DNA from: Azonexus sp.
GTDB lineage: Bacteria > Pseudomonadota > Gammaproteobacteria > Burkholderiales > Rhodocyclaceae
Length of the DNA stretch: 59,392 nucleotides
Reading direction: 5' to 3'
Assembly (NCBI RefSeq): GCF_023150235.1
Contig: NZ_JAKLLH010000025.1
Coordinates: 1 to 59,392, forward strand
Position 1 is the first letter of the stretch. Each line of letters begins with the position of its first letter. The notes below the pieces were generated by a model, which was given only the letters and a program-made list of their open reading frames with translations, did no database searches and had not been told where the DNA came from. The translations under genes were made by a program, and so were the position numbers. Below are positions 18,013-35,610 of this stretch, piece after piece.

Positions 18013-18056
18013 AAAAAGCCGTCTTTTCACGGTCGACCGTGAAAAGACGGCTTTTT
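18013..18056. repeat. 44-bp perfect palindrome, copy 1 of the CACGGTCGACCGTG family; probable bidirectional terminator
   Basis: Two 22-base arms with no unpaired loop are perfectly complementary. The core is CACGGTCGACCGTG flanked by TTTT/AAAA. The outer arm is AAAAAGCCGTC pairing with GACGGCTTTTT. A-run then T-run on both strands gives terminator shape for the converging channel and chemoreceptor genes. Confidence 0.85.
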
Positions 18057-18149
18057 TACCTGCCAGCGATCATTTCCCGCCGGCAACCACCGGTTTCCCC
18101 CACCGCCGCGAAAACGATTTCGCAGACAGCCGGGCGACATCGATGTCTT

Positions 18150-19772
18150 CTACTTCATGTAACGAAAATAGGAAACCAGCTTGCTGAGACGGGCGGCGGT
18201 ATCGCTCATCTGGCGAGTATTGTCCGCCGCCATGCGTACCGTATCGACAGTCTGCTCGATGCCGGAAACGATGCCTTCGATCTGGTTGAGAATGTCGCGC
18301 CCGGCCTGGCTCTGCTCACGGGTCGCATCGGCAATATGGCGCGACATCTCGGCCACCTCGCCGCTATGGCGGTCGACTTCGCCCAGGCCATCCTCGGCGG
18401 TCGTCATCGAGGCATCGGTCCGGGCCACCTGGGCGCCGGCACTCTCCATGCCGCTGACGGCCATCTGGGTAATACGCTGGATTTCACCGACTGTCGTCGT
18501 GATTTCCCGGGTTTGGAGGCTGGCACGCTCGGCCAGCTTGCGGACCTCATCGGCCACCACGGCAAAGCCGCGACCGCTCTCGCCAGCCCGTGCCGCTTCA
18601 ATGGCGGCATTGAGCGCCAGTAGATTGGTCTGGTCGGCCACTTCCTCGATGGTGCGGGTAACGGCCCCAATCGCAAAAATCGACTTGAACAACTCAGCCA
18701 TGGTATCGCCGGCACCGCTGACCGTACTGACCACCGCCTGCGTTGCCTGCCGGCTCTGACGCATGCTACCCACCGCCTGATCAAGCAGGCGCCGCGACTC
18801 CTCGACCGCCGCCGCCGTTGTCTGCGAATCGTCGGCCACCTGGCCGATGGAAGCATTGATTTCCTCGACGGCCGAGGCGATGCGAGTTACCGCATCGGCC
18901 TGGACCTCGGTGGTAGCCTGGGTCTGCTCCATCCCGACGGCAAGCCCGGAAGCAGCCGACTCGACGGTTTTCGCCGCCTCGTCGATTTCGGACATCATGC
19001 TCTTCAAATGCGTCTGCATACTCACCAGCGCATCGTTGAGGCGCCCCAGTTCATCGCGTCGATGCAGGGGAATGGGGTCGGTGAGATCACCCTGCGCAAT
19101 ATGGTCAAGACGGGAAATGATGCGCTCGATGATCGTGAACACCTTGCCCTGCAAGGCAATCAGGGCGATCCCGACACCGATGCTGCTGACACCGAGCAAT
19201 TGCAGTGCAGACGAGACCAGGGTCGGCGACAGTCCGAGGGCAGCGCCGAACTCGTGCAGCACGCCCCCCACGAGGTGAGCGAGGATCAGGTAACCGACCA
19301 TTGCATTGAACTTGCTGCGCAGGGAAATCCCTCCCCAGCGGGAAGGCGCCGGCAGACTCAGCTTGCCGCCCTGCAACTGGCGGTAGAGCGCCTCGGCCTC
19401 GCTGACCTCCTGCCGAGTCGGCTCGGTCCGCACCGACATGTAACCGATGGTCCGGTCGTCTTTTCTTACCGGCACGACCAAGGCATCAACCCAATAGAAA
19501 TCGCCGTTCTTGCAGCGATTCTTGACAATTCCCCGCCACGGGCGCCCCTGCTTGATCGTATCCCATAAATCCTGGAAAGCCGCCGGCGGAACATCGGGAT
19601 GACGCACCACGTTGTGATTGACGCCGATCAGCTCTTCGCGAGTGAAACCGGAAAGCTCGACGAAGGTATCGTTCGCGTAGGTAATCGCGCCTTTCAGATC
19701 GGTTCTCGAAACAACGTACTTTCCTTTTGGGAAAGCCTGTTCGTTCTGGGTAATGGGCAGGTTGCGCTTCAT
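18150..19772 (-). CDS. Methyl-accepting chemotaxis protein with N-terminal PAS domain (Aer-like)
   Basis: 540 aa. Residues ~15-125 are a PAS domain of the redox/energy-sensing Aer type ([23 protein letters not shown] strand and helix; [30 protein letters not shown]). Two closely spaced hydrophobic segments (~155-210) anchor it without a large periplasmic domain. HAMP follows (~210-265). The C-terminal coiled coil has the hairpin tip [20 protein letters not shown], which binds CheA/CheW. It probably senses internal redox state through FAD, as Aer does; cofactor binding is inference. No che genes are nearby. No CheR-binding pentapeptide is seen at the C-terminus. Confidence 0.92.
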
Positions 19773-19838
19773 CTCTTGCAGACCGGGAAAGAATTGGAAA
19801 GGAGTGTAACAAAGCCGCCGGCTTCACACAGCACCGGC

Positions 19839-19866
19839 AAAAAAAAGGGCAGCCGAAGCCACCCTT
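19839..19866 (-). terminator. Rho-independent terminator after the thiolase gene
   Basis: On the minus strand a nine-pair stem (two G-U pairs) closes a TTCG tetraloop and is followed by a run of eight T. It lies 21 bases past the thiolase stop codon. Confidence 0.85.
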
Positions 19867-19887
19867 TCTTCATCTCGCACGCCGGAA

Positions 19888-34401: not shown

Positions 34402-34451
34402 TTTTTTACGCCATCGAGAGTGGAGAGTCGTGAGTCAAGAGCAGCGCTCTC

Positions 34452-35372
34452 TCACAGCCGGAAAAAATCCCTCGCCGCTGCGGCATCAGCCGCGATCTGC
34501 GCCTTGAGGGCATCGAAATTGGGGAAACGCTGCTCGTCGCGCAGCTTGTGGATGAAGCGAACGGTGATATGGGCACCGTAGATGTCGCGGTTGAAGTCGA
34601 ACAAATGGACTTCGAGCAGGGGCCGAATCCCACCCACCGTCGGCCGGATGCCGAGATTGGCAACCCCCGGCCAGGGCCGCTCGGCCAAGCCGTGCACCTC
34701 GACCGCGAAAACGCCGGTCATCGGCAGCGGATTGTGCTTGATGCGCAGGTTGGCGGTGGCAAACCCGAGCTGCCGACCGATCTTGTCACCGTGCTTGACC
34801 TGCCCGTCGATCACGTAGGGCCGCCCGAGCAGACGCGCCGCCTGCTCCATGTCGCCGGCCGCCAGCGCCTTGCGCACGCCGGAGCTGGAAACCCGCTGGT
34901 CGGCCAGCATCACGCTGCCCAAGGCCTCGGCGACAAAGCCGAAATCCTTGCCGGCGGCCTGCAACATCGCCAGATCGCCGCTGCGACCGTGGCCGAAGCG
35001 AAAATCGTCGCCGACGATCACGTGGCGAACCCGCAGCGCACCGACCAGCACCCGCTCGATGAACTCCTCGGCGCTCAAGGCGGCAAACGCTGCGTTGAAC
35101 GGGCAGATCATCGCCTGCTCCACCCCGGCCGCCGCCAGCAACTCCAGCTTTTCGCGCAGCGTGGTCAGGCGCGCCGGCGCCGACTGCGGCGCGAAAAATT
35201 CGCGCGGGTGCGGCTCGAAGCTGAGCACGGTCGGCACCCCCCCCTGCGCCGCGGAAATATCGCCCAGCCGCCGCAACAAGGCGGCATGACCAAGATGCAC
35301 GCCATCGAAATTACCGATGGCGAGGGCAACGGGAGCAGGAACGGGACGCGAATAACCGCGAAAGACGCGCAT
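34452..35372 (-). CDS. ribF: Bifunctional riboflavin kinase / FAD synthetase
   Basis: 306 aa from the ATG at 35372 (MRVFRGYSRPVP). The N-terminal FAD synthetase half has ALAIGNFDGVHLGHAALL and the FRFGHGRSGD loop. The C-terminal riboflavin kinase half has RRLGFATANL-like GRQLGFATANLRI and GVANLGIRPTVGG. Makes FMN then FAD from riboflavin and ATP. First gene of the ribF-ileS-lspA-fkpB-ispH chain. No FMN riboswitch was noticed upstream. Confidence 0.95.
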   Translation of the reverse strand: MRVFRGYSRPVPAPVALAIGNFDGVHLGHAALLRRLGDISAAQGGVPTVLSFEPHPREFFAPQSAPARLTTLREKLELLAAAGVEQAMICPFNAAFAALSAEEFIERVLVGALRVRHVIVGDDFRFGHGRSGDLAMLQAAGKDFGFVAEALGSVMLADQRVSSSGVRKALAAGDMEQAARLLGRPYVIDGQVKHGDKIGRQLGFATANLRIKHNPLPMTGVFAVEVHGLAERPWPGVANLGIRPTVGGIRPLLEVHLFDFNRDIYGAHITVRFIHKLRDEQRFPNFDALKAQIAADAAAARDFFRL

Positions 35373-35460
35373 GGAAGGGAGCCGGAACAAAACGCCGCAT
35401 TATAGCGGCCCGCATCGCCACGGATAAAATTGAAAAGTCGATTTCAACGAATTGCCCGCC

Positions 35461-35500
35461 ATATCGCCATATCGCCATATCGCCATATCGCCATATCACC
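35461..35500. repeat. Tandem repeat, 8-bp unit ATATCGCC x5
   Basis: Four exact copies and one with a single change (ATATCACC), in the ribF-amiC gap upstream of ribF. It is a simple repeat able to change length by slippage and may alter spacing in the ribF control region. Confidence 0.9.
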
Positions 35501-35564
35501 GCATCCAGATGCGCACTCCCGATTTGAGGCCACGGCAATCCACGATCTTTTTCCTCTCTGCCGA

Positions 35565-35610
35565 CAAAAATGCTCATTTTCACGGTCGACCGTGAAAATG
35601 AGCATTTTTG
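35565..35610. repeat. 46-bp perfect palindrome, copy 3 of the CACGGTCGACCGTG family; probable amiC terminator
   Basis: The core and TTTT/AAAA flanks are identical to copies 1 and 2. The outer arms are CAAAAATGCTCA and TGAGCATTTTTG, different from the other copies yet perfectly paired. It lies nine bases past the amiC stop codon. Confidence 0.85.

Follow-up and report, generated by a model that had tools for sequence, protein, structure and literature searches.

Palindromes at gene ends in Azonexus as overlapping inverted copies of a directional motif that resembles a DNA-uptake signal

A 59,392-nucleotide stretch of an Azonexus sp. genome (NZ_JAKLLH010000025.1, positions 1 to 59,392; hereafter the window) carries long palindromes that share a constant core. 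We found that two inverted, overlapping copies of a one-sided motif, a directional core followed by two AT-rich tracts, make up each palindrome, and that the palindromes are not mainly RNA hairpins. The design of this motif suggests that they are probably overlapping inverted pairs of a DNA-uptake signal similar to the uptake signal sequence (USS) of Pasteurellaceae. We also lean towards a wider proposal, drawn from sequence comparison: an independently evolved uptake-signal system, confined within the searched family to one environmental genus and absent from half of the searched genomes, may have converged on the USS design (a CGGT-bearing core and two phased AT tracts), with several dialect changes and, in some species, a self-complementary form that would make one site readable from both strands.

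The palindrome and its one-sided unit

The three palindromes reported in an earlier, sequence-only reading, with an identical 22-base centre and different arms, are present in the window. Copy 1 (18013-18056, core 18029-18040), a double, inverted and overlapping motif, lies between convergent genes, copy 2 (23844-23885, core 23859-23870) begins 5 bases past the stop codon of yajQ (Pfam DUF520), and copy 3 (35565-35610, core 35582-35593) begins 9 bases past that of an Amidase_3/AMIN (AmiC-type) gene; yajQ and the amidase gene are both on the minus strand, and our gene calls agreed with all three placements. None of the copies is assigned a strand, both strands of each fitting the one-sided pattern, and each has a counterpart in the related genome G147. 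The window contains five exact copies of ACGGTCGACCGT (at 18029, 23859, 35582, 49245 and 49359), all outside called genes, as had been noted. Allowing up to two mismatches gave 18 matches; 100 shuffles averaged 2.8 and never attained that number. An Rfam scan of the window at gathering thresholds gave no match.

The one-sided motif of the window's own genome (G000, 3.4 Mb) consists of YCACGGTCRAC and then two AT tracts; it spans ~30 bases, is directional and occurs alone, often within genes. Detailed counts were made in a G000 sample of 854,929 bases (the window plus stretches L055-L094), in which genes were called by a purpose-written Markov script that leaves ~12% of positions non-coding. 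This sample yielded 82 one-sided strands and 97 palindromic strands with tracts. With the C of CGGTC as the starting point of the count, the tracts of the one-sided copies fall at about 13-17 and 23-27 and hence ~10 bases apart; their distances from the core are the same in the palindromic form, and no mirrored AT tract was found upstream of the core in the 82 one-sided strands. YCA precedes the core in these copies although it was absent from the search pattern. The outer tract accompanies 67% of 293 YCACGGTCRAC strands versus 1.7% for permuted words. Moreover, the consensus is strict: CACGGTCRAC with an outer tract was found on 224 perfect and 55 singly mismatched strands (palindromes counted twice), compared with 0.15 and 3.0 for permuted words, whereas without the tract condition the numbers were 336 and 328, compared with 5 and 152. 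The self-complementarity of CGGTCGACCG allows one copy to overlap another head to head, giving 44-bp palindromes with tracts on both sides.

Comparison of the sequence past the yajQ stop codon in 51 related genomes displays both forms. Thirteen of these genomes contain CGGTCGACCG, and many others carry a non-palindromic form, such as CTGCGGTCGACGCCTGAAAACAGGCAAAAA in G207 and CCACGGTCAACCGGAAAAAACGGGCAAAAA in G210; the forms fit CGGTCRAC plus AT near 13-17 and 23-27, and no motif form is present in G199, G206, G219 and others. The palindrome itself had been considered as the unit, since 75 of 86 half-plus-tract matches were exact palindromes, but that search required GACCGT, and the one-sided copies surfaced when the yajQ 3' ends were compared.

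Read outwards in 76 G000 copies, the half-site has the core at positions 1-6, G or A at 7, an AT-rich segment at 8-12, a GC-rich segment at 13-16 and 95-99% AT, with A and T about equal, at 19-21; background is reached from 23. At least five of six letters in the outer tract are A or T in 62 of the 65 exact copies of the sample. The AT tracts thus lie about one and two helical turns from the centre and are retained even in copies with unpaired arms, which points to recognition of the duplex. Pairing at arm positions 13-17 was 0.53-0.59 in the 46 intergenic copies versus 0.31-0.40 when arms were shuffled between copies; it was 0.37 versus 0.34 in 14 copies well inside genes and 0.36 versus 0.36 in five copies near gene edges. 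Over positions 13-22, 16 of 65 copies pair at no fewer than eight of ten. The G147 counterparts of the three window palindromes have changed arms that still pair, with one mismatch in copy 3. The proposal that arms change and yet pair therefore stands for intergenic copies, and fails for genic copies, which show no excess. Arm pairing is secondary, since the unit, a directional core plus two AT tracts, is also found one-sided, 58 of the 82 one-sided strands lying within called genes. The suggested site for a dimeric DNA-binding protein is sustained only in part: recognition by a protein is likely, but the palindrome is not the unit.

Gene context, spread and dialects

In G000, ACGGTCGACCGT occurs 236 times, compared with once for a reversed control word, and there are 247 copies in G147 and 120 in G205. 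The 65 exact copies of the G000 sample comprise 46 intergenic ones (19 convergent, 19 tandem and 8 divergent) and 19 within called genes, whereas 88% of random positions fall in called genes. A mostly genic location at the chance rate, which would have counted against a repeat family, was not observed in this sample. The preference for non-coding DNA coexists with many genic copies, 24 of 82 one-sided strands and 76 of 97 palindromic strands being intergenic.

We searched 76 genomes of the genus, including records named Dechloromonas, which ACGGTCGACCGT also matches. The one-sided pattern was found on 115-761 strands in 38 of them and on 2-87 strands in the other 38, with 0-9 for the reversed control. 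In a family sample of 395 genomes, 22 of them from the genus, the other 373 had 0-9 strands; likewise, among 199 family genomes searched for ACGGTCGACCGT, the 194 outside the genus had 0-3 copies. When the palindromic pattern was run across the class, on 369 genomes that included only three others from this order, no genome but G000 gave more than four matches. These genome, genus and family counts bear out the idea of a lineage-specific repeat family that favours intergenic DNA and gene ends. There is no orientation bias, with forward and reverse counts of 373/374 in G266, 363/396 in G245 and 333/359 in G210.

Dialects around CGGTCRAC differ by lineage, as judged from the yajQ ends in 51 genomes and from the letters before the core in 10 motif-bearing genomes. 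In the latter, small samples (as few as five sites, in G202), the core is preceded by CA in G000 and G147, TG in G258 and G209 and AG in G202. On a tree of five neighbouring genes from 51 genomes, the motif-rich and motif-poor states need 13 changes (mean 16.3 and smallest 10 with shuffled labels), implying that gain or loss of the motif is frequent. Treating motif-poor relatives as losses was abandoned, many genomes poor by the palindromic pattern having turned out rich by the one-sided pattern. Separately, the yajQ protein of G199 (L117-L118) is 96% identical to that of the window, the surrounding aligned DNA is ~78% identical, and the five-gene tree places G199 far from G000; recombination of this region is possible.

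The uptake-signal reading and its alternatives

Pasteurellaceae USS are represented by AAGTGCGGT in the Hin type and ACAAGCGGT in the Apl type (PMC1626085, PMC12616744), and their AT tracts have been linked to kinking or melting at the pore (PMC7811141, PMC12616744). The DNA uptake sequences (DUS) of Neisseriaceae have dialects and inverted pairs tied to terminators (PMC3630211). The traits that the Azonexus motif matches are those given for USS and DUS in these sources (PMC1626085, PMC7811141, PMC12616744, PMC3630211). Like USS, it has a directional core with two 3' AT-rich segments about one helical turn apart, lineage dialects, no strand bias and a strict consensus; it prefers non-coding DNA yet has many genic copies, forms inverted pairs and shares the letters CGGT with the USS core. 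Unlike USS, its core is based on CGGTCRAC, its tract centres are ~10 bases apart rather than the 12 given for Hin USS, its density is lower, a self-complementary overlapping form is frequent in some Azonexus species, and its hosts belong to an unrelated bacterial family. As in Neisseriaceae DUS (PMC3630211), species dialects surround a constant inner core and inverted pairs stand at terminators, but DUS have a different sequence and are described in PMC1626085 as being without flanking AT motifs.

It is the core with two phased 3' AT tracts, the dialects, the strict consensus, the strand balance and the inverted pairs at gene ends, all matching Pasteurellaceae USS, that lead us to favour an uptake signal, a role not named among those offered by the sequence-only reading. 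The retention of sites at orthologous places in G147 (below) also speaks for it. Under such a mechanism, the core would be bound by a receptor on the cell surface that belongs to the type IV pilus uptake machinery, bending or melting of the duplex at the AT tracts would allow a loop into the secretin pore, and ComEC would pass one strand inward. Molecular drive, in which uptake and recombination favour tagged DNA, would then build up perfect copies in the least harmful places, chiefly gene ends and permissive codons. Where copies are paired at gene ends, they may secondarily act as hairpins, which would explain the arm covariation there.

A genus-specific chromosome-organising or other cytoplasmic protein could instead read the core and bend DNA at the phased AT tracts, with gene-end sites separating transcription units. 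Phased tracts, a strict duplex core, sites conserved at orthologous places and a density that peaks between convergent genes once the amount of such intergenic DNA is taken into account are all in keeping with this. However, perfect copies far outnumber singly mismatched ones, a pattern described in PMC1626085 as unlike regulator sites, most one-sided copies (58 of 82) are genic, and genus members with and without the motif are intermixed; we consider this explanation unlikely. The neighbours of site clusters in G147 were inspected and named by eye; a lipoyl synthase-like protein is among them, as is a response regulator carrying a GGDEF-type domain, but no site-binding protein stood out, no dedicated search having been made.

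The remaining alternatives concern RNA and mobility. A lineage-specific family of intrinsic (Rho-independent) terminators or 3'-end hairpins, the first role offered by the sequence-only reading, agrees with the gene-end position, the paired stems that some palindromic copies form near stop codons, the pairing excess of intergenic copies and the orthologous arms that change and still pair. Yet the unit is one-sided, with hundreds of such copies per genome, unpaired copies retain core and tracts, and the copies within genes have no pairing excess. The polarity of the outer tract is about even in the 19 convergent copies (A..T 4, T..A 3, A..A 4, T..T 4, the rest mixed), which is not expected of terminators and disfavours a dedicated family; a paired stem followed by a T tract on the transcript's 3' side is not the rule, and we regard this explanation as very improbable. 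Repetitive extragenic palindromic (REP) and bacterial interspersed mosaic element (BIME) repeats are many short palindromes at gene ends, and Azonexus likewise has many of these; its unit differs in having phased AT tracts and in occurring one-sided in genes. Spread by copying of a mobile or REP-like palindromic element would fit the strict core, the high copy number, the patchy presence between related species and the gapped alignments of one site (31127, below). We give this origin hardly any credence, because conservation in 76 copies ends at position 22, arms and spacers vary from copy to copy, dialects change lineage-wide and one genic copy aligns without a gap to the motif-poor G206; the mobile palindrome family once suggested is accordingly not indicated.

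To relate the uptake-signal reading to the uptake machinery, we compared motif abundance with the state of comEC. A ComEC match was found in 75 of the 76 genus genomes, 68 of them over the cut-off, and G000 has 17 pilin-type N-terminal matches, both in keeping with an uptake signal. Eleven genomes have a comEC broken up within a single contig, the pieces being ~20-64 kb apart in G199, G206, G207, G230, G242, G244, G250 and G268, ~2-5 kb apart in G246 and G267, and adjoining in G218. Eight of these 11 have fewer than 100 motif strands and three (G207, G230 and G244) are rich, with 303-744; among genomes with one long comEC match, 30 of 54 are motif-rich. A further 11 of the 76 were left out as unclear, five of them rich, including G209 and G253, whose comEC pieces are on different contigs. 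With palindrome counts, the same comparison gave rank-test p 0.006-0.011 and p 0.12 by phylogenetic generalized least squares (PGLS). We treat an association between split comEC and motif poverty as no more than a lead. In 27.7 kb of the DNA inserted in G207, G230 and G244, there are no motifs versus 3.5 expected, as would follow under any reading for foreign DNA. The sole locus with named inserted genes is that of G250, which has a serine recombinase just beyond the break and an IS66 transposase further in. In several species, the breaks lie close to profile positions 145, 161-166 and 590 (L197-L216, 11 of 76 genomes), and a recurrent insertion site in comEC is possible.

Several points weigh against an uptake signal. 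The link between comEC and motif strands is weak (p 0.11 by Fisher's test, 0.079 by the rank test and, with 49 genomes, 0.076 by PGLS), and 24 of the 54 genomes with one long comEC match lack motif abundance. USS and DUS are quoted at close to one per kb (PMC1626085), a density that the 324 core-plus-tract strands per Mb of the G000 sample do not attain; for Apl-USS, about 200-500 per Mb is given (PMC12616744). The first AT tract is further from the core than in USS, and gaps occur near the motif in some site alignments, as at 31127. No receptor was found: none of the G000 pilin proteins, which were examined as candidates, was chosen.

The papers cited above place uptake sequences in Pasteurellaceae and Neisseriaceae. 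If the uptake-signal reading is true, a convergent case with the same architecture would suggest that pilus-driven uptake mechanically requires a core with phased AT tracts. The genus, with its numerous related species, its several dialects and its natural absences, would then serve as an environmental model in which coevolution could lead to the receptor and molecular drive could be tested. A further consequence would be that another signal can give rise, as a by-product, to a lineage-specific 'terminator palindrome'. Among the matches listed, we found no relevant literature on palindromes in Azonexus or relevant use of the word GGTCGACC; subscription journals were thinly covered, so absence from print is not established.

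Individual sites and other features

G147 is 86.7% identical to G000 over aligned parts. Ten of the 17 palindromic sites on contig C6 could be mapped to G147, all ten having a site there, and seven were unmapped. The same procedure applied to six window sites gave two matches, one site called far and three unmapped; the far site is copy 1, whose counterpart lies at the edge of a separate alignment. One-sided plus-strand motifs are found within called genes at 31124-31153 (site 31127), conserved in G147, with gaps in the alignments to G199, G253 and G202, and at 31755-31784 (site 31758), conserved in G147 and G253. The latter aligns gap-free to the motif-poor G206, and G246 carries the site with one core mismatch. 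Origin of the motif by point mutation is indicated by such sequence comparisons rather than shown.

Further copies in the window include two palindromic cores with unpaired arms and no assigned strand. That at 49229-49272 (core 49245-49256) has AT tracts on both sides, lies between divergent genes and fits the one-sided pattern on both strands; that at 49343-49386 (core 49359-49370) is upstream of a SPASM-domain gene (49436-50410) and fits on the minus strand. A weaker copy at 8743-8786, likewise strandless, lies within a called gene and combines outer AT tracts with a core that has one mismatch (ACGGTCGACCGG, 8759-8770). One-sided motifs also occur at 44994-45023 (plus strand, intergenic) and at 46495-46524 (minus strand, within a called gene, with no alignment to the stretches from relatives).

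Three other features were observed. In G201 (L113, ~18600-19900), one 60-base context is found three times at intervals of 597 bases, a tandem repeat that is probably in coding sequence. About five tandem copies of the 8-base unit CATATCGC occupy 35460-35500 of the window, between a riboflavin kinase/FAD synthetase gene and the amidase gene, and a single open frame of ~1,900 codons covers 3-5711 on the minus strand and runs off the window edge.
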